From a virus: 48,283 bases of DNA. The translations under genes and the position numbers were made by a program. Below the pieces are notes generated by a model. That model ran no database searches. It was not told the origin of the DNA and was given only the letters and a program-made list of their open reading frames with translations. This document shows, in pieces, positions 502-48,247 of the stretch. How positions within the stretch are numbered: position 1 is the stretch's first letter; the number at the start of each line of letters is the position of its first letter. The stretch spans positions 1 to 48,283 of IMG/VR virus record IMGVR_UViG_3300036985_002899; one strand, 5' to 3'.

Positions 502-533
502 TTAATATAATTAATTTTTAACTAAAGGCCAAA
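502..533 (-). promoter_or_regulatory. Bacteroidota-type promoter for the oxidoreductase gene
   Basis: TTTGGC, an 18-base spacer, then TATATTAA, six bases before the ATG at 496. Same geometry as the promoter array at 40949-48247. Confidence 0.7.
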
Positions 534-15739: not shown

Positions 15740-16513
15740 TTACAGCTCTCTCTTTACTGTAGTCTTAAATTCAGTAAATACAGGAGCATCATTAGGATGC
15801 TCAAGATCAAATAAACGGCGCACAGTTCTGAATATATCTAGATTTTCTTCTTGTGTACGAGTTGGTAATACCATTTCCCAATTTTTACCTTGCATTTTAT
15901 CTTTAGCTGGTTTACGTTTAGATGATTTTAACCATAATATACCAAAGTTATCAACTTCTTTACCATAACATTCTTTATAGCATTGACCATAAACTGCTGT
16001 TTGTAATTCATAAGTAGTTTGAACATGGTTAGATGTTTTATAATCAATTAACCATAGTTTACCTTCAATCTCACATAACATATCGCAAGTACCTGCTACT
16101 TTTAATTCATCTGAAAATAAATGTACTTCAGATTCAATTAATTTAGGATTATAAGTTTCCCAAAAGTCAACAAAACGTAAAAACATTTGCCATACATCAG
16201 GATTATATTGTGGGTAACCAGCAGGACTAAGAAAATTCATTTCTTTACCTTCTAAGTACTCTTCAATCATTTCATGTGTTTGTGTACCTTCTTCAGCAGC
16301 TTTTTTAACAATGTACTCAGAAGCATAACCTACTTTTTTTAACCAATCTTCAAAAAATTTACCTTTTGGATACATACTTAAAACATATGTAACTGATGGG
16401 TAATAATTGGCATTGCGTCTATAATATCTGGAGTCGGGTAATGTAATCTGTTTGTGGTCATCAGAAATTTCTAGAATTCTGTTGTAAGAATGCTTGATGT
16501 TTTTATTTATCAT
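15740..16513 (-). CDS. RecB/Cas4-like PD-(D/E)xK exonuclease
   Basis: 257 residues. Typical order of motifs: YYPSVTYVLSMYP near 40, GTQTHEMIEEYLEG (His of motif I) near 93, AGTCDMLCEIEGKLWLIDYKTS near 165-188 (catalytic D, then D-x-K) and YELQTAVYGQCY (QxxxY helix). These are hallmarks of RecB-family nucleases, which degrade or resect DNA ends, in phages usually for replication-linked recombination. The gene overlaps the primase gene by 4 bases, so the two are translated together and belong to DNA metabolism rather than to the cargo set. Confidence 0.85.
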   Translation of the reverse strand: MINKNIKHSYNRILEISDDHKQITLPDSRYYRRNANYYPSVTYVLSMYPKGKFFEDWLKKVGYASEYIVKKAAEEGTQTHEMIEEYLEGKEMNFLSPAGYPQYNPDVWQMFLRFVDFWETYNPKLIESEVHLFSDELKVAGTCDMLCEIEGKLWLIDYKTSNHVQTTYELQTAVYGQCYKECYGKEVDNFGILWLKSSKRKPAKDKMQGKNWEMVLPTRTQEENLDIFRTVRRLFDLEHPNDAPVFTEFKTTVKREL

Positions 16514-17442
16514 AATAGATATAGTTTTTTCTCAAGTAAACTTGAGAAAGTTAAGGGATAGGTGTTCTGTATCAATTCAGTAAAATGTCTAAATCCTAAT
16601 TCGCTTGGATCTTTACCATCTAAATCTACTAAATATACTTCTTTGCCTTCATTTATTAATTGTTCACAAAATTGCAACGCTTCTTTTAATGCGTCTCTGT
16701 CTAATGCTACGTAAATTTTCTTAACGGCTGATGTCACTAGCTTTAACATCAACGTAGACTGTATATTCTTGCCTAATAACGGTATAACATTTCGTTTAAT
16801 AGCAATGGCGTCAAACATTCCTTCGCACAGTATAATCGGTGTATTCCAGTTTATAAACAGCTCAAATGGTATAACGTTACGTGATACATCTGGATTCTTA
16901 TATTTAAGGCTTGATGTTTTATCAAAGTTACGAGCGGTAAAGTAATTTAATTTACCTGTAGCATCATATGATGGTAAAATAATCATTTTATTAAATTTAC
17001 CACCTTCACAATAACCTATATTATATTTTAAAATATCGTCTTCTGTTATACCTCGTTTTTTAATATAATTTAAAGCGTGTTTACCTATAATATTACTATC
17101 AGATATATTAACTAATGATTTAAATTCTTGAGGTAATTTTAAAATAGTTGTAGTTTGTACTATTTTTTCGCCTGATGTGTATTTAACTAATGGTCTTAAC
17201 TCATTAATTTTATCAGGGTCAGCATGTATTGCTTTAAACAGATTAATTAAGGACTTACCTTTTTTATTGCAAGTCCAACAATGCCATGGGTTGTCACCTT
17301 TATCGGATTCAGTGAAATTGATTTCTAACTTAGGTTTATGGTGATTACAAAACGGACAGTGGTAGGCGTGATTACCTTTTGACGTTTGTTTACCAATACC
17401 TAATACAGAATTTACTACATTTATAAGGAGTTGATTTACCAT
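16510..17442 (-). CDS. DnaG-type DNA primase
   Basis: 310 residues. An N-terminal zinc finger has C29, C32, C55 and C58 (CPFC and CWTC) with the aromatic spacing of CHC2 primases. The Toprim catalytic fold follows: CEGMFDAIA (E207) and VALDRDA (D248, D250). It makes RNA primers for lagging-strand DNA synthesis. It is shorter than cellular DnaG and has no helicase domain, as in T4 gp61. It has a promoter of the early type directly upstream with almost no leader, so it is probably expressed before the surrounding late genes. Confidence 0.88.
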   Translation of the reverse strand: MVNQLLINVVNSVLGIGKQTSKGNHAYHCPFCNHHKPKLEINFTESDKGDNPWHCWTCNKKGKSLINLFKAIHADPDKINELRPLVKYTSGEKIVQTTTILKLPQEFKSLVNISDSNIIGKHALNYIKKRGITEDDILKYNIGYCEGGKFNKMIILPSYDATGKLNYFTARNFDKTSSLKYKNPDVSRNVIPFELFINWNTPIILCEGMFDAIAIKRNVIPLLGKNIQSTLMLKLVTSAVKKIYVALDRDALKEALQFCEQLINEGKEVYLVDLDGKDPSELGFRHFTELIQNTYPLTFSSLLEKKLYLL

Positions 17443-17447
17443 ACCTC

Positions 17448-17479
17448 ATATTATACGTAAGATAGGTTAAAAAGCCAAA
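17448..17479 (-). promoter_or_regulatory. Bacteroidota-type promoter for primase
   Basis: TTTGGC, exactly 18 bases, then TATAATAT, ending five bases before the primase ATG. The transcript would start at or next to the start codon, so it could be leaderless. It is the only such promoter between 534 and 36126. Confidence 0.65.
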
Positions 17480-35052: not shown

Positions 35053-35853
35053 TTATTCGTCGAAGAAATTAGACATCACATTTTTTAAACCTTCACTTTT
35101 AACACTACTTAGTGCTTTAGATTTAACTGGTGTCTTCTTATCTTCTTTTTTTAAATTAAAATTTGATTTATTTTCTGATTTAGGACCTAATAATTTAGGT
35201 AACCATTCTCTTTCGAATTCAATTCTTGCAGCCATTAAGTCAGCTTGATGTACTATATAAATTAATGAAGTACGAGGTCTAGTTTCTGGCATCCATGACA
35301 TTAGATAAGGCTTATTAGCTTCATCATATAGGCCATCATGTAATTTAATAGTTAATAACTCGTTTTTAGTAACTGTAATTCCTAGCTGAGATAATATATA
35401 TAAACCGCGATCAGGAACAGACATAAACTCTAAACGATCATTAAACATATAAGGTTCATTTAATTTCTCACGTCTCCATTGGTCTGTTTGAGGTAGATAT
35501 GCTTCTTCTTCAAATGTTCCAAATTTACCTAAATCATGATTCATAGCTGAAAATACTAATTCTTCAGTAGAATAAGTATCTACTACTCCCATTTCTCTCC
35601 ATACACTATCTATTTTTAATGCACCTTCAATTACTCTATTAACATGGTCTATATATCCACCTGGAAAGCAATTATGATATTGAGGTTTATGAGCTGCCGG
35701 CATCATTAAAAATCTATCATCATATTTTAAATAAAATGCTTTTAATTTAACACCACGGTCTCCTGTAATGTATGTATCAATATAACGTAAGAAATCTTCC
35801 CAATTACTTAATATTTGTTCTGGTTGTAACATATTAGTACTTATTAATTTCAT
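35053..35853 (-). CDS. HD-domain phosphohydrolase
   Basis: 266 residues. Metal ligands in order: HNCFPGGYIDHVNRV near 60-75, MNHDLGKFG near 107 (the HD pair) and a further LHDG near 164 with VHQADLMAAR near 195. These mark the HD superfamily, with spacing close to YhaM-type 3'-5' exoribonucleases and nucleotide phosphohydrolases. Likely acts on nucleotides or RNA in the infected cell. The C-terminal 40 residues are Lys/Ser-rich linker. Overlaps its upstream neighbour by 20 bases. Confidence 0.75.
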   Translation of the reverse strand: MKLISTNMLQPEQILSNWEDFLRYIDTYITGDRGVKLKAFYLKYDDRFLMMPAAHKPQYHNCFPGGYIDHVNRVIEGALKIDSVWREMGVVDTYSTEELVFSAMNHDLGKFGTFEEEAYLPQTDQWRREKLNEPYMFNDRLEFMSVPDRGLYILSQLGITVTKNELLTIKLHDGLYDEANKPYLMSWMPETRPRTSLIYIVHQADLMAARIEFEREWLPKLLGPKSENKSNFNLKKEDKKTPVKSKALSSVKSEGLKNVMSNFFDE

Positions 35854-36049
35854 TAGGTGTAACAGGTTCCATATTAATATACGATTTCATTTGTTCAATT
35901 AAATCTCTACAAGATGTAATCATATCATCATAATCATCTTTAGTTCCTTGGCGTCTTAATAAGTAAGACATTTTAGTTAAATTAGACTCTAAATTCTCTA
36001 ATTTCCTATTAAAAATTTCTCTATTTCTCATATGTTTATTTATAACCAC
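35834..36049 (-). CDS. Small coiled-coil protein
   Basis: 71 residues, helical and charged (MRNREIFNRKLENLESNLTKMSYLLRRQG). Twenty-base overlap with the HD gene. A TTTGGC-type promoter lies upstream (36127-36158), so this gene opens the unit that includes the HD hydrolase and the late sigma factor. Function unknown. Confidence 0.6.
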   Translation of the reverse strand: MVINKHMRNREIFNRKLENLESNLTKMSYLLRRQGTKDDYDDMITSCRDLIEQMKSYINMEPVTPNEINKY

Positions 36050-36126: not shown

Positions 36127-36158
36127 AAAATATAACGTTATTTACTTGGGGAGCCAAA
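36127..36158 (-). promoter_or_regulatory. Bacteroidota-type promoter for the HD hydrolase and sigma-factor unit
   Basis: TTTGGC, 18 bases, TATATTTT. It overlaps the last codons of the gene at 36138-36578. It would let host polymerase make the late sigma factor before late transcription begins. Confidence 0.65.
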
Positions 36159-36578
36159 CTTTAGGAGGATTTTGTTTACTTCTGTTTCAATTGATTTTAG
36201 ATATGCACAATCTTCATATCTCTCTATTGATTCAAAGTAGTATAAACAACGTTTAACACTAGTCAACAGCATATCGTCAGTTGCTAAGGTAATGTAATAT
36301 ACATGGGATAAATCGGTAATATCAAGTCTTTTAATGTACGAGTATGCTATAGAATAAGTTAAGTATTCAACTGTGTCTTTTACTTTATCTTTATCTATGT
36401 CATGTTCATCTTCTAGTGAGTCTAAAAGATTTTTCATGAAGTATTGATAACCGTTATTATAATTGTGTATTAGTTTTTTAAACATACCAATCCAATAAGA
36501 AGGAGTGTCCCTGAGGTCATTAATTGCCTCTTGAAACTCTCCATCATTAAATGAATTAAATACTTTATCTATGTCCAT
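36138..36578 (-). CDS. Unknown helical protein
   Basis: 146 residues, all-helical (VFNSFNDGEFQEAINDLRD, YLTYSIAYSYIKRLDITDL). No recognised domain; weak resemblance to TPR-like helical repeats. It has its own promoter immediately before the start codon, and AGGAGT directly precedes the ATG. With the -7 box ending six bases before the ATG, the message may be leaderless. Confidence 0.6.
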   Translation of the reverse strand: MDIDKVFNSFNDGEFQEAINDLRDTPSYWIGMFKKLIHNYNNGYQYFMKNLLDSLEDEHDIDKDKVKDTVEYLTYSIAYSYIKRLDITDLSHVYYITLATDDMLLTSVKRCLYYFESIERYEDCAYLKSIETEVNKILLKFGSPSK

Positions 36579-36584
36579 ACTCCT

Positions 36585-36616
36585 GATATATAATAAAGAG
36601 TGGTCATAATGCCAAG
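36585..36616 (-). promoter_or_regulatory. Bacteroidota-type promoter
   Basis: CTTGGC, 18 bases, TATATATC, for the gene at 36138-36578. The -7 box differs from the array consensus at the end. Confidence 0.55.
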
Positions 36617-39211: not shown

Positions 39212-39338
39212 TAGTCAGGACAGGATTCGAACCTGTATGATAACTTATGAGCTTTACTTATGGGTCTTTCAAGGTTACTCTGCGTTATCTTTACTATTAA
39301 CCTTTATTCATAGCGTCTACTAATTCCGCCACCTGACT
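39212..39338 (-). tRNA. Oversized Leu-like tRNA or tRNA-like element (anticodon not assigned)
   Basis: 127 bases, about 40 longer than a normal tRNA-Leu. Acceptor AGTCAGG/CCTGACT, Leu-type D arm GCGGAATTAGTAGACGC and T arm ACAGG-TTCGAAT-CCTGT are intact. Between them lies an enlarged centre with an internal hairpin (AAGGTTA/TAACCTT). I cannot place a proper anticodon stem, so it may carry an insertion in the anticodon or variable arm, or be non-functional. Confidence 0.55.
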
Positions 39339-39346
39339 AGTGTTAA

Positions 39347-39496
39347 TTACTTAACTGAATCAACAGCTAATGAATCTACTACTACTGTTGAATCAACAGC
39401 AGTTGAATCAGTTGTTGTAGTTTCTGTTGTTGAATTTGATTGACATGCAGTCAATACGATTGCAGCTAAAGCTACGATTGCGATTAGATTTTTCAT
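39347..39496 (-). CDS. Small lipoprotein, Thr/Ser/Asp-rich
   Basis: 49 residues. MKNLIAIVALAAIVLTAC is a lipoprotein signal with lipobox LTAC (Cys18). The mature 32 residues are low-complexity: Thr-run, then repeated VDS units (TAVDSTVVVDSLAVDSV). It may be an outer-membrane spanin subunit or a surface-exclusion lipoprotein. Its promoter overlaps the end of the next gene. Start chosen because it gives the full signal sequence. Confidence 0.7.
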   Translation of the reverse strand: MKNLIAIVALAAIVLTACQSNSTTETTTTDSTAVDSTVVVDSLAVDSVK

Positions 39497-39539: not shown

Positions 39540-39571
39540 TAAATATACTAACTCCTATACGCGGAGCCAAG
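39540..39571 (-). promoter_or_regulatory. Bacteroidota-type promoter for the lipoprotein gene
   Basis: CTTGGC, 18 bases, TATATTTA. The box continues into TAA, so it also contains the TATTTATA octamer of the late region (39538-39545). It overlaps the last codons of the gene at 39548. Confidence 0.65.
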
Positions 39572-40101: not shown

Positions 40102-40902
40102 TTAATTGACGAATTCGTTTGCTAATTGATATAACTTATTGTTTAACTCCATGTCCTTATTGAAATTCTTAATTTTACGTGCCTTACGATTTTTAGAACC
40201 GTAAGCATAATTAAATAACCCGTGTGTTAACTTTTCTTGAACTGTATTGAACACTGACCACATGTCATTACCCTTATCTTCCTCACGTGACGGAGTTAAT
40301 AAGTCATTTAAATCAATGGTGATATGCTCTAATTCACTATCAGTGAACCTGGAATTTAATGCGCGTTTAGCAAAATCAAGCATTTGGTTTGAATTCAAAA
40401 CCGTGGTTTTAAAGCGGTTCATTGATTCAACAGTTAACGGTAACTTTTCTACCATTGCATTAATGGTTTTTTCTAGTTCCTCAAAATCGTATCCGTAGTG
40501 TCTAATTTTTAAGTTTTCAAATTCTTGGTTACAAACCACTAACCCATTCTCACAAATCATTCTAAATAAACCGGCTGTGAATGTAAATGCATTTTTACCG
40601 TCATGTGAATTAGTAAGTAATATTTGAGGGAAAACTGTGTCACCGTCTGCTCCATCAATTACAATTTCTGAATTTCTAAACACAACTAAGTGTTTTTGGA
40701 ATCCTACACTCTTACGAGCCTTAACTTGTTTTGCATCAACTACACCCCATCCTAATAACTCCATATCATCGATAATTTTTTCGGTTGAGATGTGAGCGTA
40801 CTTATCTGAAGTACTAGGTGAACCGGTAGTTGTGAAAATTGAATTTGCTCTGTTTTTGATTTCCGACTTATCGATGAAATCCATGTTTTTAATATCTAAC
40901 AT
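40102..40902 (-). CDS. DUF932-type phage/plasmid protein
   Basis: 266 residues. FPQILLTNSHDGKNAFTFTAGLFRMICENGLVVCN (about 88-122) is the signature block of the DUF932 family, whose members are common in phages and plasmids and have no settled function. Flanking helices and a Lys/Arg-rich end (YGSKNRKARKIKNFNKD) suggest contact with nucleic acid. Its own TTTGGC promoter and leader lie upstream at 40903-40980. Confidence 0.75.
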   Translation of the reverse strand: MLDIKNMDFIDKSEIKNRANSIFTTTGSPSTSDKYAHISTEKIIDDMELLGWGVVDAKQVKARKSVGFQKHLVVFRNSEIVIDGADGDTVFPQILLTNSHDGKNAFTFTAGLFRMICENGLVVCNQEFENLKIRHYGYDFEELEKTINAMVEKLPLTVESMNRFKTTVLNSNQMLDFAKRALNSRFTDSELEHITIDLNDLLTPSREEDKGNDMWSVFNTVQEKLTHGLFNYAYGSKNRKARKIKNFNKDMELNNKLYQLANEFVN

Positions 40903-40948: not shown

Positions 40949-40980
40949 TAAATATAACATCCTTATCCTGGTGAGCCAAA
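40949..40980 (-). promoter_or_regulatory. Bacteroidota-type promoter for the DUF932 gene
   Basis: TTTGGC, 18 bases, TATATTTA, followed by the shared leader element AAGTTAAACA and an A-rich stretch before the ATG at 40902. Confidence 0.75.
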
Positions 40981-41411
40981 CTTAAGGTATATAGGTATAT
41001 ACTTGCATCGATGTGAAAAATTTGTACTTCTAAGTTTTTCCGGCCTTTAGCCGGTTATACCAAAGGGGCTATATGGAATTGCGCATTATGCATTTTACGA
41101 TCGTCCGTCGTTTATAGCCGGGATATGGGCGGAATATAGCGGTGTTAATGCGTGTTAGTGGTATGGTAGGTAGTTGTCGTATATCAATATATACGCTCCG
41201 CGCGCAGTATACGTTTACTTGCTATTTTTACGTCACCTTCTTTCTTCCATACCACGTACGCATCGATGGATAACAACGCACGCATTTCCCACGCACTACC
41301 TCCGTACATATACCGTATATATACCGCAAACAGATAGGGGATGTAACCCACACAAAAAAAGAAAAGGGGGATCGAGATTATCGACCCACCCGTAAGATAT
41401 GATATGAAATA
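40981..41411. other. Non-coding G+C- and CpG-rich stretch, possible origin or regulatory region
   Basis: No convincing gene in about 430 bases. Composition changes sharply: many CpG steps, CCGCGCGC-like runs, and inverted repeats such as CCGGC-cttta-GCCGG at 41040-41054 and CGTATAT-CAAT-ATATACG near 41178-41195, plus repeated ATATACCG near 41310-41335. At 41337-41375 it has GGGGATG and GGGGGATC, the reverse of the ATCCCC repeats at the right end. It separates the structural/tRNA part from the small-gene part. Origin function is inference. Confidence 0.4.
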
Positions 41412-41522
41412 CTATTTAACCCGTTTATATTGTTTATAACGGTCAATTAATTCTGTTCCAACGACCAATACTACCATAGTGAGTATTAACGTGATACTGA
41501 AGTCGATTCCGATGTCTGACAT
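41412..41522 (-). CDS. Tiny single-span membrane protein
   Basis: 36 residues: MSDIGIDFSITLILTMVVLVVGTELIDRYKQYKRVK. One membrane segment (residues 9-22) and a basic tail. It pairs with another tiny membrane peptide just upstream. The reading is supported by the hydrophobic pattern and gene-like spacing; function unknown. Confidence 0.5.
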   Translation of the reverse strand: MSDIGIDFSITLILTMVVLVVGTELIDRYKQYKRVK

Positions 41523-41541
41523 TGTATTGCGGTTTTATTGT

Positions 41542-41619
41542 TTATTTTTTAAATTTTTCGAGTGTGTTTTGAATTGCAACTAAATACAATACAACTACTA
41601 TTAATAAAAATGTTATCAT
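41542..41619 (-). CDS. Tiny membrane peptide
   Basis: 25 residues: MITFLLIVVVLYLVAIQNTLEKFKK. A single hydrophobic helix with a basic end. It lies between the tRNA cluster and the other tiny membrane protein. Short length leaves doubt whether it is expressed. Confidence 0.4.
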   Translation of the reverse strand: MITFLLIVVVLYLVAIQNTLEKFKK

Positions 41620-41640
41620 GTTATTTAATGTTTTAATTTG

Positions 41641-41723
41641 TAGTCAGGACAGGAATCGAACCTATGACATTGTAACCATTAAGGATATGATAGACCATCT
41701 TTCATATTACACAATACCTGACT
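41641..41723 (-). tRNA. tRNA-like element (anticodon not assigned)
   Basis: 83 bases. Acceptor AGTCAGG/CCTGACT is identical to that of the Leu-like element at 39212, and the T arm (ATAGG-TTCGATT-CCTGT) is intact. The centre folds instead into ATATGA/TCATAT with a D-loop-like AAGATGGTCTA and an outer ATTGT/ACAAT pairing. No clean anticodon stem; GGT (Thr) is a weak possibility. May be degenerate or unusual. Confidence 0.45.
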
Positions 41724-41733
41724 ATATTATTTG

Positions 41734-41807
41734 GGTATTTATTGAGATTCGAACTCAACCTATCAGCACCACAAACTGACGTGCTAACCGCTAACACTAT
41801 AAATACC
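41734..41807 (-). tRNA. tRNA-His (anticodon GTG)
   Basis: 74 bases including the extra 5' G that pairs with discriminator C, a hallmark of tRNA-His. Anticodon stem TCAGT/GCTGA with loop TTGTGGT; T arm TTGAG-TTCGAAT-CTCAA. Confidence 0.92.
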
Positions 41808-41859
41808 ATATAAATGCACTTCCTAGTTCCACTCTGCTGTATAGTGCTAACCATCTCCG

Positions 41860-41912
41860 TAGTTAGGACAGGACTCGAACCTGTATGGGAGCACATATCC
41901 CTCCACCTAACT
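41860..41912 (-). other. 53-base mini tRNA-like element
   Basis: Acceptor AGTTAGG/CCTAACT and T arm ACAGG-TTCGAGT-CCTGT are perfect, but the whole space between holds only 21 bases, with a short hairpin (GGAG/CTCC or GGGA/TCCC). There is no room for both D and anticodon arms. It could be a deleted tRNA, a tRNA-like processing signal or a decoy. It starts three bases after the gene at 41916 and is probably cut from the same transcript. Confidence 0.45.
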
Positions 41913-41915
41913 ATA

Positions 41916-42080
41916 TTATTTACTATGATCGTTTATAAACTCAATTACTGTATTAATAGTACCTTTTAAGTAACCGAATTTAAATGCATCTGAGTTATTA
42001 TCATCTACTATTACATCAGATTCTAATACTGTAATTAATGTGTTTTTAATAATTTCTAATTTTGTTTTTTCGATGTTCAT
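41916..42080 (-). CDS. Small unknown protein
   Basis: 54 residues (MNIEKTKLEIIKNTLITVL to FINDHSK), helical and mildly acidic. Preceded by AAAGATATG-type start context and its own promoter. The tRNA-like and tRNA-His genes lie directly downstream. No recognised family. Confidence 0.6.
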   Translation of the reverse strand: MNIEKTKLEIIKNTLITVLESDVIVDDNNSDAFKFGYLKGTINTVIEFINDHSK

Positions 42081-42102
42081 ATCTTTATTTTCTTATTATA
42101 AT

Positions 42103-42134
42103 TAAATATAATAAACTAATTGTGGTGAGCCAAA
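42103..42134 (-). promoter_or_regulatory. Bacteroidota-type promoter
   Basis: TTTGGC, 18 bases, TATATTTA, upstream of the 54-residue gene and the tRNA cluster. It overlaps the end of the gene at 42116. Confidence 0.7.
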
Positions 42135-42265
42135 CCTGTTTTTACTACCTCATAATCAATACCTTCAAAATCAAGTATACATGTGTACATGTTTAATTGA
42201 CCTTGTGAGTAACAAGTATAATCAAGTTGACCGTTTACAAAAATTTCAAATTTATATGGTGGCAT
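42116..42265 (-). CDS. Small unknown protein
   Basis: 49 residues: starts MPPYKFEIFVNGQLDYTCYS and ends IDYEVVKTGLAHHN. Beta-rich pattern with two Cys. It overlaps the upstream gene by 14 bases. No family recognised. Confidence 0.55.
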   Translation of the reverse strand: MPPYKFEIFVNGQLDYTCYSQGQLNMYTCILDFEGIDYEVVKTGLAHHN

Positions 42266-42401
42266 ATGTTTCCTCTATTTGTAGTGCGTGTCGTCTAAAT
42301 TCTAATAACTCATTCCAGTTCTCAACTGTTCTATTATTCATGTATTGGACAGTTAGCTGATATTCCTTATCATATAACTCTTTTAACTCTTCTTCCATCA
42401 T
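42252..42401 (-). CDS. Small acidic helical protein
   Basis: 49 residues from the first of two adjacent ATGs (MMEEELKELYDKEYQLTVQY...). Charged helix with WNELLEFRRHALQIEE. Translation is coupled to the next gene through a 14-base overlap. Function unknown. Confidence 0.55.
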   Translation of the reverse strand: MMEEELKELYDKEYQLTVQYMNNRTVENWNELLEFRRHALQIEETYATI

Positions 42402-42404
42402 TGG

Positions 42405-42539
42405 TTAATTATTTAATTTGTCTACTCCGTACTTACTAATAAACTCTTGCATCGGTATTAACTCGATTTCATTATCATCGATCCATAACACTTCTACTAA
42501 TTCGTTACCTGGTATATCTAAAATGTTTAATATTTTCAT
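42405..42539 (-). CDS. Small acidic protein
   Basis: 44 residues: MKILNILDIPGNELVEVLWI then DDNEIELIPMQEFISKYGVD. First gene of a three-gene unit behind the promoter at 42559. Not recognised. Confidence 0.55.
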   Translation of the reverse strand: MKILNILDIPGNELVEVLWIDDNEIELIPMQEFISKYGVDKLNN

Positions 42540-42558
42540 ATCCGTTTCTTATTATATC

Positions 42559-42590
42559 TAAATATAACATCAATTGTTCGGGAGGCCAAG
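42559..42590 (-). promoter_or_regulatory. Bacteroidota-type promoter
   Basis: CTTGGC, 18 bases, TATATTTA, driving the three small genes at 42116-42539. Confidence 0.7.
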
Positions 42591-42600
42591 CAAGAGGTTA

Positions 42601-42630
42601 GCCCTGAGCGGATATGAAACGCGTCAGGGC
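42601..42630 (-). terminator. Hairpin after the RadA-like gene
   Basis: GCCCTGA (42601-42607) and TCAGGGC (42624-42630) pair, extended by GCG/CGC inside. It lies just upstream of the promoter at 42559-42590. There is no strong U-tract, so termination efficiency is uncertain. Confidence 0.5.
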
Positions 42631-42645
42631 CAGTTGCCTCAGATA

Positions 42646-43530
42646 TTAAGAAAAAATAATGTTCTGGTACTCCGGGTTAGTTATTTCTAGTTCCAATTCC
42701 TCATCAGAGCCATCAGAGTCAATTTCAATTGTGCCGTAATATATTTGTGTGCCGGTTAATTGAAAACTCATTCTCATTCCGGCCTCACCGTTTCTATTCT
42801 TAGTAAATGTTAAATATGTACCACCACCATTTCTATCCGACTCACGTCTCATTTCTAACATTGCGTCTGTTAAGTGTTTCAGCTTATTCGAACCCACAAA
42901 CACACCCGCTTTAGTAACTTGTTGAATCAGTAGAAACGATGTGTACTTATTTGTCTTATTATCACCTTTATTATTGTTAACACAGACATCTACTAACCAT
43001 GACTCGGCAATTTTTCTGTCCCAATTGTTATCATCCCTAACACCATCAATAATTTCAGCGATAGAGTCAATTAAAACTAAATCATATCCAATATTAAGCG
43101 CTTGTTCAATTACATCCTTGGTGTTATGGTTCATGTAATCACTCATAAATAAAGTGTCTACTATACCAAACTGTGGAAATCGTTGTGTGTATTTAAACAT
43201 TTGTTTACGGCCCATTTCACCTGAGATGAATAAACATTTACGATTTTTATTCTGTACCGCGGCTAATAGATCAAGTAACAATGTTGTTTTACCCACACCT
43301 GGATCACCTATAATCATCATATTTGAAGCACTCGGCACTCCGCCTTCATAACTTACAAAGTGATCTAAGGCTAGACCTGATTTCATTGTCTCCATCATCT
43401 TAGGATCGACATTTAAGTTATTTAACTTAGTTATAGCCGAGAAATCAATTAGCGATGGTGTGTATGTGACGTTTTGTGCTACCTTCTTTTTAGACGGTCT
43501 ACCGCGTCTTTTAATTTGTGTCTGGTTCAT
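42646..43530 (-). CDS. RadA/Sms-like RecA-fold ATPase with N-terminal AT-hook
   Basis: 294 residues. Residues 7-15 (KRRGRPSKK) form an AT-hook for minor-groove binding. The RecA core has Walker A GDPGVGKT (75-82), Walker B LVLID (151-155), QQVTKAGVFVGSNKLKHLTDAML (203-225) and KNRNG (244-248), close to the RadA KNRFG motif. The zinc finger and Lon-like domain of cellular RadA are absent. Likely role: branch migration or recombination-dependent replication. A DnaB-like helicase is the alternative. Own promoter upstream. Confidence 0.75.
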   Translation of the reverse strand: MNQTQIKRRGRPSKKKVAQNVTYTPSLIDFSAITKLNNLNVDPKMMETMKSGLALDHFVSYEGGVPSASNMMIIGDPGVGKTTLLLDLLAAVQNKNRKCLFISGEMGRKQMFKYTQRFPQFGIVDTLFMSDYMNHNTKDVIEQALNIGYDLVLIDSIAEIIDGVRDDNNWDRKIAESWLVDVCVNNNKGDNKTNKYTSFLLIQQVTKAGVFVGSNKLKHLTDAMLEMRRESDRNGGGTYLTFTKNRNGEAGMRMSFQLTGTQIYYGTIEIDSDGSDEELELEITNPEYQNIIFS

Positions 43531-43550
43531 ATCTTTTTTTCTTATTTAAC

Positions 43551-43582
43551 TAAATATAACAATTAATATTGGTGAGGCCAAA
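43551..43582 (-). promoter_or_regulatory. Bacteroidota-type promoter for the RadA-like gene
   Basis: TTTGGC, 18 bases, TATATTTA, with a 20-base leader ending in AAAAGATATG. Confidence 0.75.
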
Positions 43583-43587
43583 TATAT

Positions 43588-43764
43588 TTAACCTAAATGT
43601 TCCTCAATAATATCAATTAAATATTGTTTAATATCACTTTCCTCAAAACCCTCTTCAATCAAATCATCACTAATTAATTCTAAATTATGAGTGAAATTTA
43701 CAAGTGCAATTTGATCAATTAAATTATCTATTTTTGATTTAGTAATAAAGTCTAATTTTTTCAT
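43588..43764 (-). CDS. Small acidic helical protein
   Basis: 58 residues (MKKLDFITKSKIDNLIDQIA ... IIEEHLG). Mostly helical, acidic at the end. AAAGATATG start context. No family recognised. Confidence 0.6.
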   Translation of the reverse strand: MKKLDFITKSKIDNLIDQIALVNFTHNLELISDDLIEEGFEESDIKQYLIDIIEEHLG

Positions 43765-43790
43765 ATCTTTTTCTTTAATTTCTTAATACT

Positions 43791-43822
43791 TAAATATAAC
43801 ATCCTTACCCCGGAGGGCCAAA
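43791..43822 (-). promoter_or_regulatory. Bacteroidota-type promoter
   Basis: TTTGGC, 18 bases, TATATTTA, for the 58-residue gene. Its TTTGGC box is in the loop and stem of a GGAGGG/CCCTCC hairpin (43812-43837) that spans the stop codon of the upstream gene. Confidence 0.7.
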
Positions 43823-43827
43823 CCTGT

Positions 43828-44076
43828 TTAACCCTCCATCAAATCTTCTTTTTTATCAATCCAATATTGATGTTCCATTAACTCATTATACTCTTCACTA
43901 CACTTTACACAACCGGCCACTTTAATTCCATTAAACTTGGCATGGTTAGTTGCGAGTGCTGGTGTACCACATAAGTTACCAGTTCCTGATTTGTAAATGT
44001 GTGATGTGTTTTCCCACACATTACCTTTGTTACCATAAATGAAGTAACCTGATTTTAATTCTGTTTCGTGTATCAT
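43828..44076 (-). CDS. Small Cys/His protein, possible zinc binder
   Basis: 82 residues. CGTPALATNHAKFNG followed by VAGCVKCSEEYNEL gives one Cys, one His and a CxxC pair, enough for a zinc site. The C-terminal tail is acidic helix. Function unknown. Confidence 0.6.
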   Translation of the reverse strand: MIHETELKSGYFIYGNKGNVWENTSHIYKSGTGNLCGTPALATNHAKFNGIKVAGCVKCSEEYNELMEHQYWIDKKEDLMEG

Positions 44077-44098
44077 ATCTTTATTTTTTTCTTATACC

Positions 44099-44130
44099 TA
44101 AATATAACATCAATTATTGGCGAGGCCAAG
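44099..44130 (-). promoter_or_regulatory. Bacteroidota-type promoter
   Basis: CTTGGC, 18 bases, TATATTTA, for the Cys/His protein gene. TTGGC-CTC-GCCAA makes a small hairpin over the upstream box. Confidence 0.7.
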
Positions 44131-44322
44131 TCTTTGATCATCTATTTCGACTTTTTCAAGTAATAAATCCATTATATCAGATTGTGGGTATCTCATCACC
44201 AACTGACGTAACATTTGGTTAGTCATTGCAACCTTTTCTAAAATATATTCCATTGTTTCGCCATCAATATCGATGTCTTTACATAATTCAATAATAGTTG
44301 ATATTTTTTCGTCTCTGTTCAT
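44110..44322 (-). CDS. Small acidic helical protein
   Basis: 70 residues (MNRDEKISTIIELCKDIDID ... DDQRLGLANN), all-helical. Its end overlaps the next promoter. Seven bases separate it from the upstream 46-residue gene, so the two share a promoter. Not recognised. Confidence 0.6.
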   Translation of the reverse strand: MNRDEKISTIIELCKDIDIDGETMEYILEKVAMTNQMLRQLVMRYPQSDIMDLLLEKVEIDDQRLGLANN

Positions 44323-44329
44323 ATCTTAT

Positions 44330-44470
44330 TTAATTATTATATAAAACTATACAATTCTCTTTTTCTTTAATCCTATGATTTATCCACTCTTTAGTATCAC
44401 CTATAAGCATTACCTCTTTTGTTTTATCCTCAATTTTAGATAATTTTTCAATTAATTCTTCTACTGTCAT
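44330..44470 (-). CDS. Small protein, N-terminus like that of the gene at 46896
   Basis: 46 residues: MTVEELIEKLSKIEDKTKEV then MLIGDTKEWINHRIKEKENC. The first 12 residues match MTVKELIEELSK in the gene at 46896, suggesting a shared small domain. AAAGATATG start context. Confidence 0.55.
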   Translation of the reverse strand: MTVEELIEKLSKIEDKTKEVMLIGDTKEWINHRIKEKENCIVLYNN

Positions 44471-44486
44471 ATCTTTCTTATTTAAC

Positions 44487-44518
44487 TAAATATAATAAAG
44501 AATGGCCTGAAGGCCAAA
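44487..44518 (-). promoter_or_regulatory. Bacteroidota-type promoter
   Basis: TTTGGC, 18 bases, TATATTTA, for the genes at 44110-44470. The upstream box lies in TGGCC-TTCA-GGCCA, a hairpin with a four-base loop. Confidence 0.75.
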
Positions 44519-44522
44519 CTTA

Positions 44523-44708
44523 TTAATCAATTTCTACTAAATCAATATAAAACCAAGTATCTTCTTTACCATCATCCATTACTTTAACACTTGGTAAACC
44601 ACCATCATATCCTTCTTCAATATATTCAACTATATTGACATTATCAACATGAACTAATTCTTCAAATGTTCCTTCAAAATCTGAAACTGCAAATACTGTA
44701 CTTCCCAT
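44523..44708 (-). CDS. Small acidic protein
   Basis: 61 residues (MGSTVFAVSDFEGTFEELVH ... WFYIDLVEID). Beta-rich and acidic; SH3-like small barrels have this look, but no family is recognised. Full shared leader upstream with AAGTTAAACA. Confidence 0.6.
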   Translation of the reverse strand: MGSTVFAVSDFEGTFEELVHVDNVNIVEYIEEGYDGGLPSVKVMDDGKEDTWFYIDLVEID

Positions 44709-44750
44709 ATCTTTTTTTTTCTTAAATGTTTAACTTATTTTCTTTATACC

Positions 44751-44782
44751 TAAATATAACATCCTATTTAACCGAAGCCAAA
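44751..44782 (-). promoter_or_regulatory. Bacteroidota-type promoter
   Basis: TTTGGC, 18 bases, TATATTTA, for the 61-residue gene. It overlaps the end of the gene at 44764. The upstream box forms TTGGC-TTCG-GTTAA, a possible UUCG-loop hairpin with wobble pairs. Confidence 0.75.
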
Positions 44783-44937
44783 TATTCTTTAACCTTAACT
44801 AATACAAATTTATCAATATCGTATTTATCAAATCCTTCTTTATCTAATTCTATACATATAGAATGTATAACTCTTTCTAAAGTTTCATCGTCTTGAGTTA
44901 ATATTAACCCCTCCATAAATTGTTTTCTTATATTCAT
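44764..44937 (-). CDS. Small acidic protein
   Basis: 57 residues (MNIRKQFMEGLILTQDDETL ... VLVKVKEYLASVK). Helical, weakly similar in feel to the 58-residue gene at 43588 but not clearly homologous. AAAGATATG start context. Confidence 0.6.
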   Translation of the reverse strand: MNIRKQFMEGLILTQDDETLERVIHSICIELDKEGFDKYDIDKFVLVKVKEYLASVK

Positions 44938-44956
44938 ATCTTTTTTTTCTTATACC

Positions 44957-44988
44957 TAAATATAATAAAGATTGGCCCGAAGGCCAAA
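44957..44988 (-). promoter_or_regulatory. Bacteroidota-type promoter with UUCG hairpin over the upstream box
   Basis: TTTGGC, 18 bases, TATATTTA, for the 57-residue gene. TTGGCC-TTCG-GGCCAA at 44972-44987 is a perfect 6-bp stem with a UUCG loop. Confidence 0.75.
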
Positions 44989-44991
44989 CAT

Positions 44992-45237
44992 TTATATTAA
45001 ACTAATTTCCATTTCCTCCAACACACTCATAAACTCACTTACTAAAATCTCATCATCCTCACTTAACTCCTCATTATAAACATCCTTACCCACAATATCA
45101 CTTAACACATCCATCCATTCCTCACTCCCTCCCTCAATCTCTTTATTATCTAAACCATCCATTTCCTCAAAATACTCATCATCAATTCCATTATTAAACA
45201 AAATCTCTAATACATTCTCATGTGTAAATTTTTTCAT
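44992..45237 (-). CDS. Very acidic small protein
   Basis: 81 residues with very many Glu and Asp (EVMDVLSDIVG region, EDDEILVSEFMSVLEEMEIS). Such acidity could mimic DNA or serve as a protein decoy, as many phage anti-defence proteins do, but this is inference. Single-gene unit. Confidence 0.6.
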   Translation of the reverse strand: MKKFTHENVLEILFNNGIDDEYFEEMDGLDNKEIEGGSEEWMDVLSDIVGKDVYNEELSEDDEILVSEFMSVLEEMEISLI

Positions 45238-45261
45238 ATCTTTTTTTTTTTTTTATTTAAT

Positions 45262-45293
45262 TAAATATAATAAAGAATAATCTAAAAGCCAAA
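45262..45293 (-). promoter_or_regulatory. Bacteroidota-type promoter
   Basis: TTTGGC, 18 bases, TATATTTA, for the acidic 81-residue gene; the short leader ends in a long A-run before GATATG. Confidence 0.75.
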
Positions 45294-45298
45294 CTTAT

Positions 45299-45502
45299 TT
45301 AACTCCAAACCTCATCAAAATCATCTTCTAACTCACCTAAATTATTAAACTCATAATCTTCAATCATTTCCTTACACAATTCTAATAAATTCTTCTTAGC
45401 CATTTTTTCTTCAAATGACAAATCTTTATCATTTAAATTATTAGAACAATCAATTAAATCTAAATAGGTATTTCTAAACCTACAATAACTCATATTTGCC
45501 AT
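45299..45502 (-). CDS. Small acidic protein
   Basis: 67 residues (MANMSYCRFRNTYLDLIDCS ... GELEDDFDEVWS). The N-terminal MSYCRFxNT motif followed by DL..C recurs in small proteins of phages, as far as I recall; function unknown. Acidic C-terminus. Full shared leader. Confidence 0.6.
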   Translation of the reverse strand: MANMSYCRFRNTYLDLIDCSNNLNDKDLSFEEKMAKKNLLELCKEMIEDYEFNNLGELEDDFDEVWS

Positions 45503-45543
45503 ATCTTTTGTTTTTAAAGTGTTTAACTTATTTTCTTAATATC

Positions 45544-45575
45544 TAAATATAATAAAGAATAATAAGAGAGCCAAA
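45544..45575 (-). promoter_or_regulatory. Bacteroidota-type promoter overlapping a terminator-like hairpin
   Basis: TTTGGC, 18 bases, TATATTTA, for the 67-residue gene. The upstream box is one arm of the hairpin at 45566-45591. Confidence 0.75.
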
Positions 45576-45591
45576 CAAATGTTTGACTCTC
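45566..45591 (-). terminator. Terminator-like hairpin merged with a promoter box
   Basis: GAGAGCCAAAC (45566-45576) pairs with GTTTGACTCTC (45581-45591) with one mismatch; on the minus strand it is followed by TTATTATTCTTTATT. It lies just after the stop of the gene at 45601. Confidence 0.55.
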
Positions 45592-45600
45592 CTTTAATAA

Positions 45601-46017
45601 TTAACTTTTAAATTTATCTACTAAATTATTTATTAAACTATCAATATCATTTCCTTTTAAACTATTAATAATAATTTCATTATTAATTTTACTTCTTAAA
45701 CCACTACCCATCACCGCATAATAATTCTTACTTTCATTAATCATTACCATATCTTCAACATCACTATAACAATCATCATTATAAACATTAATACCATTCC
45801 AATTTTTATCTTCTACTTCTTTTTCAATTTCCTCCATTTTTTTACAAATTTTATCACTCCACTTTTTCTTTTCATTTAAAAGTTTTTTTAACTCTTCATT
45901 CCATTCTTTAACTTTTTCACCACACTCTTTTTCCAATTTTTCTCTTTCAATTTCCCTTACCTTATTCTCTATCACATCTACTAAACAATCTACTTCAAAT
46001 CTATTTAATCTTTTCAT
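45601..46017 (-). CDS. Coiled-coil protein, paralogue of the gene at 46114
   Basis: 138 residues. MKRLNRFEVDCLVDVIENKV opens a long charged coiled coil (WNEELKKLLNEKKKWSDKICKKMEEIEKEVED), then a short beta part and a conserved end, LKGNDIDSLINNLVDKFKS. The neighbour has the same start and end, so the two arose by tandem duplication. Function unknown. Confidence 0.65.
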   Translation of the reverse strand: MKRLNRFEVDCLVDVIENKVREIEREKLEKECGEKVKEWNEELKKLLNEKKKWSDKICKKMEEIEKEVEDKNWNGINVYNDDCYSDVEDMVMINESKNYYAVMGSGLRSKINNEIIINSLKGNDIDSLINNLVDKFKS

Positions 46018-46058
46018 ATCTTTTTTTTTAAATTATTTAACTTATTTTCTTATTTAAC

Positions 46059-46090
46059 TAAATATAATAAAGGTTAATGGGAGGGCCAAA
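46059..46090 (-). promoter_or_regulatory. Bacteroidota-type promoter
   Basis: TTTGGC, 18 bases, TATATTTA, for the gene at 45601. The upstream box lies in the hairpin at 46079-46106. Confidence 0.75.
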
Positions 46091-46106
46091 CATATTTAAC
46101 CCTCCC
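46079..46106 (-). terminator. Terminator-like hairpin merged with a promoter box
   Basis: GGGAGGG (46079-46085) and CCCTCCC (46100-46106) pair perfectly, 8 bases after the stop of the gene at 46114. TTTGG of the next promoter is in the loop. Confidence 0.55.
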
Positions 46107-46113
46107 TTAATAA

Positions 46114-46509
46114 TTAACTTTTAAACTTATTTACTAAACTTTCTATTAAACTATCAATATCATTCTCTTTTAAATTACTAATAACAATTTCATCATTAAT
46201 TTTATTTTTTACATTCCAATCAACTAAATCATTATTAATCCTAATCCTTCCACCACCTACTTCATAACCCACATTAACATAAATACCTTTCCATCCATTC
46301 TCTTTTATCATTTTACTAATTTCCCTACCTCTTTCACTAATCTTTTCATTAATAATTTTTCTTTCAACATCTAATTTTTCTAACTCTTCATTCCACTCCT
46401 TAATAAATCCAACACACTCTTTTTCAATTTTTTCACTTTCAATTACATTTAATTTACTCACTACTACATTTACTAAACTTTCTACTTCAAATTTACTTAA
46501 TCTTTTCAT
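46114..46509 (-). CDS. Coiled-coil protein, paralogue of the gene at 45601
   Basis: 131 residues. MKRLSKFEVESLVNVVVSKL, the central WNEELEKLDVERKIINEKI coiled coil and the end LKENDIDSLIESLVNKFKS align with the neighbour; the middle has diverged (WKGIYVNVGYEVGGG against WNGINVYNDDCYSD). Single-gene unit with its own promoter. Confidence 0.65.
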   Translation of the reverse strand: MKRLSKFEVESLVNVVVSKLNVIESEKIEKECVGFIKEWNEELEKLDVERKIINEKISERGREISKMIKENGWKGIYVNVGYEVGGGRIRINNDLVDWNVKNKINDEIVISNLKENDIDSLIESLVNKFKS

Positions 46510-46554
46510 ATCTTTTTTTTTAAAGGGTTTAATTTATTTATTTTCTTAACATTT

Positions 46555-46586
46555 TAAATATAATAAAAATTATTTAACTTTCCAAA
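46555..46586 (-). promoter_or_regulatory. Bacteroidota-type promoter, variant
   Basis: TTTGGA (last base changed), 18 bases, TATATTTA, for the gene at 46114. Confidence 0.65.
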
Positions 46587-46590
46587 CCTA

Positions 46591-46812
46591 TTATTTATCT
46601 AAATAAACCACTAATCTTTCAAAATTATTAAAATAATTTCTTACATCATAACCTTTATCTTTCAAAATATTATACACTTTTTCCCTATCCTCATCACTTA
46701 ACCAACTAAATTTTAATCTCCTTTTACCACTTCTATACTTATCATTATACCAAGAAAATTTATTACCAATAATTTCCTTTACATCACTTCTTAAAATTTC
46801 ATAATTTTTCAT
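46591..46812 (-). CDS. Small basic protein
   Basis: 73 residues (MKNYEILRSDVKEIIGNKFS, then RSGKRRLKFSWLSDEDREKVYNILKDKGYDV). Basic and aromatic with an alpha/beta pattern; possible nucleic-acid contact. Not recognised. Confidence 0.6.
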   Translation of the reverse strand: MKNYEILRSDVKEIIGNKFSWYNDKYRSGKRRLKFSWLSDEDREKVYNILKDKGYDVRNYFNNFERLVVYLDK

Positions 46813-46857
46813 ATCTTTTTTCTTTTTAAATTATTTAACTTATTTTTTCTTATTACT

Positions 46858-46889
46858 TAAATATAATAAAAATTATTTAAAAAGCCAAA
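46858..46889 (-). promoter_or_regulatory. Bacteroidota-type promoter
   Basis: TTTGGC, 18 bases, TATATTTA, for the 73-residue gene. A GGGG/CCCC hairpin lies just upstream of it. Confidence 0.75.
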
Positions 46890-46895
46890 TAGGGG

Positions 46896-47144
46896 TTAAA
46901 ACATACCCCCATTAATTATTACTACTTTCTTTGATTCTTTTAACCTATCATAATCAGGCTCTCCATCTTCACCTAATTCATAATCCTCATCATCATACTC
47001 TTCTAAATCATCATCACCTTCACCTAAATAAATTCCTTCAATTTCATTTACATATCTCCAATCTGTTGGATCTATACCTTCAATTCTTACTTCAGTTTCT
47101 AAATTGAACTTACTTAATTCTTCGATTAATTCTTTTACAGTCAT
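46896..47144 (-). CDS. Small acidic protein
   Basis: 82 residues. MTVKELIEELSKFNLETEVR is followed by IEGIYLGEGDDDLEEYDDEDYELGEDGEPDY, a highly acidic centre, and ends KKVVIINGGMF. The front resembles the 46-residue gene at 44330. The fold, with a strand before and after an acidic loop, is common in small phage proteins of unknown function. Confidence 0.6.
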   Translation of the reverse strand: MTVKELIEELSKFNLETEVRIEGIDPTDWRYVNEIEGIYLGEGDDDLEEYDDEDYELGEDGEPDYDRLKESKKVVIINGGMF

Positions 47145-47187
47145 ATCTTTTGTTTTTAAATGGTTTAACTTATTTTTTCTTTATATC

Positions 47188-47219
47188 TGAATATAATAAA
47201 CAATTATACAGAAGCCAAA
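47188..47219 (-). promoter_or_regulatory. Bacteroidota-type promoter, variant -7 box
   Basis: TTTGGC, 18 bases, TATATTCA, for the 82-residue gene. Confidence 0.7.
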
Positions 47220-47407
47220 CAAGTTATTCTATCTTCTCTTAAGTCAGGAATATTAAATCCTAATCTCCAAACATATAAATTTTCTAATAACTCATCATTT
47301 AATGAATTCATGAATTTTATCTTCTCATCCTTAGATAATAAATTTATCCATTCTTTTACTCGTTCATCTAATTTCCAATCAAAATTTTTCTTAGGTGCTA
47401 TTATCAT
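47204..47407 (-). CDS. Small helical protein
   Basis: 67 residues (MIIAPKKNFDWKLDERVKEW, then LLSKDEKIKFMNSLNDELLENL). Helical; the final residues overlap the next promoter. Not recognised. Confidence 0.6.
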   Translation of the reverse strand: MIIAPKKNFDWKLDERVKEWINLLSKDEKIKFMNSLNDELLENLYVWRLGFNIPDLREDRITCLASV

Positions 47408-47428
47408 ATCTTTTTTTTCTTATTTAAT

Positions 47429-47460
47429 TAAATATAATAAAGATATTGTGGGGAGCCAAA
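47429..47460 (-). promoter_or_regulatory. Bacteroidota-type promoter
   Basis: TTTGGC, 18 bases, TATATTTA, for the 67-residue gene at 47204. Upstream of it lies the ATCCCC repeat cluster. Confidence 0.75.
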
Positions 47461-47628
47461 AAGGTGGTTGAGTTGGGTTGAGTCTCCCTAGAGCGGTTGA
47501 TCCCCCTAGGACGGTAATCCCCCTTTCACATATAAGCGGCGATCCCCCTTCCTACATCCCCCGTTAGGGACAGAAAAAGACACCCCCTTGCGGTGGTGCC
47601 TTAAAACATGGATCAAAAAAATTGCTAA
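47461..47628. repeat. Non-coding stretch with ATCCCCC repeats
   Basis: Four copies of ATCCCCC (GGGGGAT on the minus strand) between 47499 and 47562 in a G+C-rich spacer, with differing bases between them. CTACATCCCCC recurs at 47943. No gene seen. Confidence 0.6.
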
Positions 47629-47841
47629 TTAATAAGCAAATTCTTCATTCTTCAATCTACGGTACGTCATGCGATACATCGCATTAGCCAATAATTGAGG
47701 AATTCTACGTCTGTAATTTAATACATTCGAGATGTGAGACTCTGAATAGCCAGTTACTTCTGCTAATCTTACTTGATCCCCTTTGCGTTGACGGTGCTTA
47801 AAGAACATTACTTTAGCACCACGGTTTAATCTTCTACTCAT
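47629..47841 (-). CDS. Small HTH DNA-binding protein
   Basis: 70 residues, basic. GDQVRLAEVTGYSESHISNVLNYRRRIPQ (about 21-49) is an XRE/Cro-type helix-turn-helix, with the recognition helix around ESHISNVLN. It may repress or activate neighbouring genes; the ATCCCCC repeats directly downstream are possible but untested targets. Own promoter upstream. Confidence 0.75.
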   Translation of the reverse strand: MSRRLNRGAKVMFFKHRQRKGDQVRLAEVTGYSESHISNVLNYRRRIPQLLANAMYRMTYRRLKNEEFAY

Positions 47842-47874
47842 AACTTGTTTTTATATTTAATTAATTATTATACT

Positions 47875-47906
47875 ATAATATAAGTAAATTGACTTATGAG
47901 GCCAAA
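47875..47906 (-). promoter_or_regulatory. Bacteroidota-type promoter for the HTH gene
   Basis: TTTGGC, 18 bases, TATATTAT, 33 bases before the ATG at 47841. Confidence 0.7.
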
Positions 47907-48010
47907 TTTAAGTTGGAGGTGGGAGGCGTTTTAAGCCCCCCTTCCTACATCCCCCATTTTACATCCCCGTTACCGGGCCGGGGTTTAATCCCCCTAATGC
48001 AATCCCCTAA
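47907..48010. repeat. Second ATCCCC repeat cluster
   Basis: ATCCCC occurs four times between 47945 and 48008 (ACATCCCCC, ACATCCCC, TAATCCCCC, CAATCCCC), in a G+C-rich spacer between the AT-hook and HTH genes. No gene seen. Confidence 0.55.
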
Positions 48011-48172
48011 TTACGCTTGGGGTGCTGATTTTTTAGTCCCCGTTGGGCGACCACGTTTAACTGACCCACCAGCCGCTACACGCTCCGCGCGTGCCGCTAA
48101 TGTTGCCTGACGTTTTGAACCTGCCACTACTGGACGACCTTTTTTACTTGATACTGTTACTGAATTCTCCAT
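48011..48172 (-). CDS. Small basic AT-hook protein
   Basis: 53 residues. Two AT-hook cores, KKGRPVVAGSKR (10-21) and KRGRPTGTKK (39-48), are joined by an Ala/Arg-rich helix (QATLAARAERVAAGG). Such proteins bind the minor groove of AT-rich DNA, so it could compact or mark phage DNA. G+C content is higher than in the neighbouring genes. Own promoter upstream. Confidence 0.7.
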   Translation of the reverse strand: MENSVTVSSKKGRPVVAGSKRQATLAARAERVAAGGSVKRGRPTGTKKSAPQA

Positions 48173-48215
48173 AACCTTAATTTGTTTTTTATGTGTTTAA
48201 CTTATTTATTATACT

Positions 48216-48247
48216 TAAATATAACATCAGTTCCCCGCGAGGCCAAA
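48216..48247 (-). promoter_or_regulatory. Bacteroidota-type promoter for the AT-hook gene
   Basis: TTTGGC, 18 bases, TATATTTA, then the AAGTTAAACA leader. Another ATCCCC copy follows at 48270. Confidence 0.75.

Follow-up and report, generated by a model that had tools for sequence, protein, structure and literature searches.

A minus-strand array of fixed-spacing promoters with nested hairpins before the small genes of a T4-like viral contig

Promoter-early stem-loops (PeSLs) are reportedly described by Arbiol 2010 and Comeau 2014. The PeSLs of T4-type phages are promoter and stem-loop cassettes held to mediate gene shuffling (PMC4503421, PMC5931544). The early promoters of T4 are described as having an extended, tight consensus that is read by the host polymerase (PMC2988021). 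In Bacteroidota, the consensus of the primary sigma factor consists of TTTG at -33 and TAnnTTTG at -7 (PMC7366714, PMC9723704). The sequence studied here is the 48-kb IMG/VR viral record IMGVR_UViG_3300036985_002899 (positions 1-48,283, the whole of which is called the window), which carries T4-like baseplate genes. Nearly every small gene in its region 40949-48247 is headed by the same rigid promoter, TTTGGC-N18-TATATTTA, and in many copies a stem-loop is built into it. It is likely that these elements serve the host polymerase as early promoters and at the same time carry terminators for the gene before.

The motif scan that the preliminary description had proposed for counting copies and spacing returned 21 sites with at most two mismatches in the window, every one on the minus strand and with a constant 18-base spacer, whereas shuffled controls averaged 2.45 sites and never exceeded 7. 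Perfect copies numbered 13, and the reversed pattern had no match in the window. The array itself is real, but region 40949-48247 holds 18 elements, all on the minus strand, and not the 19 reported previously; a scan allowing up to three mismatches found no further element there. Outside the array, good elements are located at 39540, 36127 and 502. The last two belong to the four outliers already listed, to which 39540 has to be added, and the other two, 17448 (TATAATAT) and 36585 (CTTGGC, TATATATC), are weaker elements that retain the 18-base spacer. The repeated leader sequences mentioned in the same description, AAGTTAAA.. and ..AAAGATATG, were also found in many copies. The strand, the hairpins and the overlap with stop codons, about which it was silent, are added by the present analysis.

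The fixed spacer also holds far beyond the window. In the contigs of the family there are 167 TTTG-N20-TATATTTA sites (20 bases after TTTG, that is, 18 after TTTGGC), 12 sites at N24 and 0-2 at other spacings. Viral contigs retrieved from all of IMG/VR present 192 sites at N18, while any other spacing occurs 0-3 times. Of the N18 loci, 120 had been retrieved by that very spacing, with extra copies in 29 of them. Among 110 non-redundant family sites, TTTG is followed by G and then by C in 85%, the -10 box ends in A in 96%, and AT(G)T precedes the box. The boxes had been said to fit the Bacteroidota sigma factor consensus, and TTTG at -33, TAnnTTT and a similar separation are indeed shared with it. 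On the other hand, the phage elements end in A (TATATTTA) and not in the G of TAnnTTTG, their spacing is exactly 20 instead of a loose 18-20, and they have in addition a conserved C and, ahead of the box, AT(G)T. In single genomes of Polaribacter and Aquimarina, TTTG-N-TATATTTG showed only a mild peak at N19 with a weak preference for the final G, which agrees with the earlier remark that the phage boxes are tighter than host promoters; the TATATTTA version showed no clear excess over the control in these two genomes. When the exact motif was scanned in bacterial genomes, single scattered matches over many phyla were obtained and no arrays. In sequence, the phage element is host-like, yet tighter and slightly shifted.

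Concerning the hairpin, the TTTGG(C) box is one arm of a stem-loop in many copies. Its partner lies upstream in 45575 (GGAGAGTCAAAC-loop-GTTTGGCTCTC), 46090 and 43822, elements being named here by their higher coordinate, and within the spacer in 44988 and 44518. A 5-bp TTTGG:spacer stem is present in 65% of the 110 family sites versus 11% with shuffled spacers. Column permutation still leaves this stem in 53% of the sites (0.53 vs 0.655 in the real ones), so much of the TTTGG:spacer pairing is positional consensus. The mean stem energy was -2.93 versus -1.88 ± 0.11 after column permutation. Furthermore, swapping the element halves among sites worsens the mean energy, both in the family (z -6.2) and in unrelated viral contigs (z -9.0), while the controls gave z +0.4 to +2.2 for leaders and z -1.1 and -4.0 for upstream regions. 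Relatives carry different stems in the same slot (GGGGTTTGG-CTAT-CCAAATCCCC and GGAGCCCC-GAAA-GGGGCTCC, or also GGCTCCC-ATA-GGGAGCC and GGCTTCC-TTA-GGAAGCC), and orthologous genes are preceded by elements with unlike arms in which the pairing is maintained. In eight sequences, terminator-like hairpins with T-rich tails end inside elements 31 times versus about 3.4 expected, although these sequences include close relatives, so that the 31 cases are partly dependent on one another. When the sites of the window were folded one by one, only a few reached strong z-scores. The elements of the window and their hairpins are the following:

48216..48247, minus strand: element TTTGGC-N18-TATATTTA before ORF 48011-48172 (motif scan)
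47875..47906, minus strand: variant element (TATATTAT) before ORF 47629-47841 (motif scan)
Upstream of 47875..47906, minus strand: separate G+C-rich hairpin (folding)
47429..47460, minus strand: element before ORF 47204-47407 (motif scan)
47188..47219, minus strand: element (TATATTCA) before ORF 46896-47144 (motif scan)
46858..46889, minus strand: element before ORF 46591-46812 (motif scan)
46913-46888, minus strand: hairpin just upstream of the preceding element, with TTTGGCTTTTT as T-rich tail
46555..46586, minus strand: TTTGGA-variant element before ORF 46114-46509, weak stem TTTGG-AAAG-TTAAA
46059..46090, minus strand: element before ORF 45601-46017 (motif scan)
46079..46106, minus strand: 12-bp hairpin GGGAGGGTTAAA-tatg-TTTGGCCCTCCC whose 3' arm is the -35 box and spacer start; dG -21.7 over a 64-base stretch, z -4.0
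45544..45575, minus strand: element before ORF 45299-45502 (motif scan)
45564..45593, minus strand: 13-bp terminator-like hairpin across the -35 box and spacer, tail ATTATTCTTT (folding z -5.4)
45262..45293, minus strand: element before ORF 44992-45237, stem GGAGTTAAA..TTTGGCTTTT rich in G-U
44957..44988, minus strand: element before ORF 44764-44937 (motif scan)
44987-44972, minus strand: hairpin TTGGCC-TTCG-GGCCAA within the -35 box and spacer of the preceding element, tail TCTTTATTAT
44751..44782, minus strand: element before ORF 44523-44708, with the stop of the upstream ORF inside the spacer (TTT GGC TTC GGT TAA)
44487..44518, minus strand: element before ORF 44330-44470 (motif scan)
44516-44503, minus strand: hairpin TGGCC-TTCA-GGCCA in the preceding element, tail TTCTTTATTA
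44099..44130, minus strand: CTTGGC element before ORF 43828-44076, stem TTGGC-CTC-GCCAA, end of the upstream ORF in the spacer
43791..43822, minus strand: element before ORF 43588-43764 (motif scan)
43837-43812, minus strand: 11-bp stem GGAGGGTTAAA..TTTGGCCCTCC at the preceding element, tail not T-rich
43551..43582, minus strand: element before the RecA-fold ATPase ORF 42646-43530 (motif scan); the upstream ORF ends with a TAA located in the upstream arm GGTTAAA
42559..42590, minus strand: CTTGGC element before ORF 42405-42539 (motif scan)
42103..42134, minus strand: element before ORF 41916-42080, upstream ORF terminating within the spacer
40949..40980, minus strand: element before the DUF932 ORF 40102-40902, kept in 5/5 closest relatives
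39540..39571, minus strand: CTTGGC element before ORF 39347-39496, stem GGCTCC..GGAGTT
36585..36616, minus strand: weak element (CTTGGC, TATATATC) before ORF 36138-36578
36127..36158, minus strand: element (TATATTTT) before ORF 35834-36049, stem TTTGG-CTCC-CCAAG
17448..17479, minus strand: weak element (TATAATAT) before ORF 16510-17442
502..533, minus strand: element (TATATTAA) before ORF 2-496 (motif scan)
564-541, minus strand: strong separate terminator-like hairpin, 7 bases upstream of the preceding element

The same layout was found in an isolated phage. The nearest isolate found is Flavobacterium phage vB_FspM_immuto_2-6A (NC_055915, hereafter immuto), a 160-kb T4-like myovirus whose baseplate wedge is 46% identical, and a nucleotide search for close named phages found none. 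The small genes of immuto are headed by GTTG[CG].., exactly 20 bases and TATATTTA; TTG stands exactly 20 bases before TATATTTA 33 times and 1-5 times at any other spacing. Moreover, textbook terminators of 10 to 11 bp are nested in the -35 box and spacer (AAAAGAGTTGC-TTAACC-GCAGCTCTTTT, and GTTGCCTC-TTCG-GAGGCAAT-TTCC before TATATTTA), and the swap test gave -5.56 vs -3.20 ± 0.32. The annotated record (NC_055915) makes no mention of such elements. In both phages small genes are headed by a TTG-N20-TATATTTA promoter in which terminators are nested, whereas the -35 of immuto is GTTG[CG] instead of TTTGGC, which is almost absent from its genome (one site, at 20704). This common architecture despite the differing -35 context argues that the layout is conserved rather than the TTTGGC word.

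Among uncultured viruses, a near-identical ATPase gene is present in five IMG/VR contigs, and in 22 others the gene is 66-72% identical. Since the same element is found at both ends of a relative of 154,840 bases, the window probably represents about one third of a genome. Mel-JY01 and LR756508 contain no copy of the motif although their baseplate proteins are related. In the case of Microcystis phage Mel-JY01 (PP395634), whose baseplate protein is 45% identical and which lacks these promoters, the cyanobacterial host label may deserve a check. A 412-kb viral contig presents a related set, TTTGGT-N18-TATATTTA, often with CG directly before the -10 box.

The elements are tightly packed against the genes. 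In the window, the distance from the stop codon of the upstream ORF to the -35 start could be measured in 15 cases; it lies between -20 and +26 in 12 of them, and some of these stops sit inside the stem or the spacer. Compared with the closest relatives, gene blocks of the window have been deleted and transposed; for example, blocks 3035-3339 and 2726-3054 (coding-strand numbering) are in reversed order in one of them (L001). The ends of the blocks fall within elements in 213 of 424 cases (50%) versus 17% expected, counts that are not independent and that include alignment ends drifting into repeated sequence.

Regarding the PeSLs, the likeness lies in a host-type promoter and a stem-loop within one short intergenic element, with strong stems in about a quarter of the copies here, as well as in the position before small variable genes, the density in shuffling regions and the breakpoints at elements, the permuted blocks being consistent with recombination between elements. 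Early promoters in the first 50 kb of the T4-type phage RB49 have hairpins located 15-17 bases upstream of the -35 at 45322, 34481 and 47732, and nested between -35 and -10 at 43031, 33335 and 25338. However, the PeSLs of enterobacterial and vibrio phages have sigma-70 boxes (TTGACA/TATAAT) and those described here are of the Bacteroidota type; no sequence homology was found between them, and both the boxes and the spacing differ. In addition, the -35 is here often a stem arm itself and the spacing is fixed at 20. Hence, the elements are like PeSLs in their anatomy and in the shuffling that they appear to allow; the variation consists in this double use of the -35 under a constant spacing of 20 bases. 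With T4 early promoters they share a consensus longer and tighter than that of the host and, as the putative reader, the host polymerase; the sigma factor and the sequence are different, and a nested hairpin does not form part of the description in the available part of the source (PMC2988021).

Several observations weigh against promoters combined with terminators. With its final A (96%), its spacing of 20 bases and its fixed C, the element departs from the host consensus. Just about 25% of the family elements fold at -8 kcal/mol or below, many stems have a length of 5 bp and include G-U pairs, and where the spacer is of the common GATGT kind no U-run comes directly after the stem, so such copies may be poor terminators or none. 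On the opposite strand, too, the swap test is significant, because any inverted repeat gives this signal; it shows structure and not strand, and on its own it is no proof of an RNA role. The non-independence of the breakpoint counts adds to this. The hairpin probably ends transcription of the preceding gene, with a fitting sequence in a subset of the copies; since many hairpins are weak, termination is what we infer. Two further arguments were set aside. An upstream-arm stem is not claimed for every copy, since the whole-upstream swap was barely above chance at short lengths (20 vs 17 for at least 6 bp; 6 vs 1.6 for at least 9 bp). G-U wobble as proof of an RNA role was down-weighted, as transitions give the same changes and the opposite-strand swap is positive.

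A rival reading is that of plain early promoters. The hairpins, present in a minority of copies, would then be ordinary terminators that come to lie against the following promoter because the genome is crowded, and a DNA-shape or consensus effect would explain the weak repeats. Many elements have a weak hairpin or none, much of the TTTGG/YYRRR pairing survives column permutation, and in some copies (533, 47906) the hairpin is wholly upstream. Nevertheless, this explanation seems unlikely, given that an element's own halves outpair swapped ones in two independent site sets and in immuto, that unlike arms before orthologous genes still pair, and that terminator-like hairpins are concentrated within the elements.

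In T4 middle promoters, MotA reads a box that replaces the -35. The possibility of a dedicated regulator, raised previously and taken here as one (or a polymerase-binding factor) that reads TTTGGC in a similar way, is helped by the C after TTTGG, which is equally conserved in hairpin-less sites (31/38). The hairpin does not explain this C, and a sequence-specific reader of it is possible. The fixed 20-base spacing and final A, unlike the N19 and final G of the host, point in the same direction, and the array includes two small, possibly DNA-binding ORFs (47629-47841 and 48011-48172), although neither has a Pfam match. Against it, TTTG is the host's own -33 motif, and immuto has TTG followed mostly by C rather than GC at identical spacing, so the TTTGGC box is lineage-specific. 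Early promoters of T4-type phages, which the host polymerase reads, normally have a tight consensus (PMC2988021). A dedicated regulator is not needed, and the hairpin may account for part of the constraint. As the main explanation it is distinctly improbable, with the fixed C left in its favour. Finally, that the TTTGG-N4-CCAAA inverted repeat is an operator for a repressor shutting off the early genes would suit the near-palindrome over the -35 in many copies and the pairing signal on the opposite strand, but is very improbable, since the second arm varies freely (CCAAA, CCAGG, TTAAA, TTGAG, GGCC..), the loop length shifts or the arm lies upstream of the box, which a sequence-specific dimer would not tolerate.

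Some features of the neighbouring genes should also be mentioned. ORF 47629-47841 (minus strand, 70 aa) resembles, on visual inspection, a small helix-turn-helix protein (..RLAEVTGYSESHISNVL..) and gave no Pfam or named-phage match. ORF 48011-48172 (minus strand, 53 aa) carries an AT-hook-like KRGRPKGTKK and is possibly a DNA-binding early protein. ORFs 45601-46017 and 46114-46509 (minus strand) are adjacent and paralogue-like, the second with a weak DUF7307 (Pam3 gp33-like) match. Upstream of 9229, 20650 and 34059 (minus strand), structural genes without a TTTGGC element carry ATATTTATAA directly ahead of the start, which may be a late promoter that has no -35, comparable to the T4 late TATAAATA. 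Along 44000-48000 the strand composition is extreme: at 44-46 kb the coding strand contains about 5% C but 21% G, a GC skew of -0.62 on the plus strand, so C is scarce in those transcripts. An Rfam search of the region gave only tRNAs. The stretches 41640-41920 and 39212-39338 are tRNA-like and were not called by ARAGORN; the latter has an Rfam tRNA score of 35.7 bits with a long insert, and 41861-41915 resembles a damaged tRNA.

If the elements are promoters combined with terminators, two signals would share about 32 bases in each copy. As DNA, the element would drive strong early transcription by the host RNA polymerase with the Bacteroidota primary sigma factor: TTTG would occupy about -36 to -33 and, after exactly 20 bases, TATATTTA about -12 to -5, and transcription would start about 5 bases past the box. 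As RNA transcribed from the upstream gene, TTTGG(C) and the spacer would fold into a stem-loop; together with the U-rich stretch behind it, to which the -10 box contributes, this would end or weaken read-through. With promoter and terminator in one element, each small gene would be transcribed as a separate unit although hardly any intergenic DNA is present, and the common element and leader would provide the homology for shuffling whole gene cassettes. Weak copies may be promoters only. Bacterial RNA polymerase is known to diffuse in vitro after termination and to restart at nearby promoters (PMC6978380). That a polymerase released at the hairpin lands on the next -10 box and restarts, being handed from gene to gene along the small early genes, is a tentative idea of low probability.

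These results suggest that composite promoter-terminator cassettes, known from T4-type phages that infect enterobacteria and vibrios, have also arisen or been retained in Bacteroidota phages, there with other sigma boxes. They also provide a rule for finding early genes in uncultured phages, namely TTG, exactly 20 bases and TATATTTA with a hairpin inside, and the direct handover of polymerase from terminator to promoter becomes testable.

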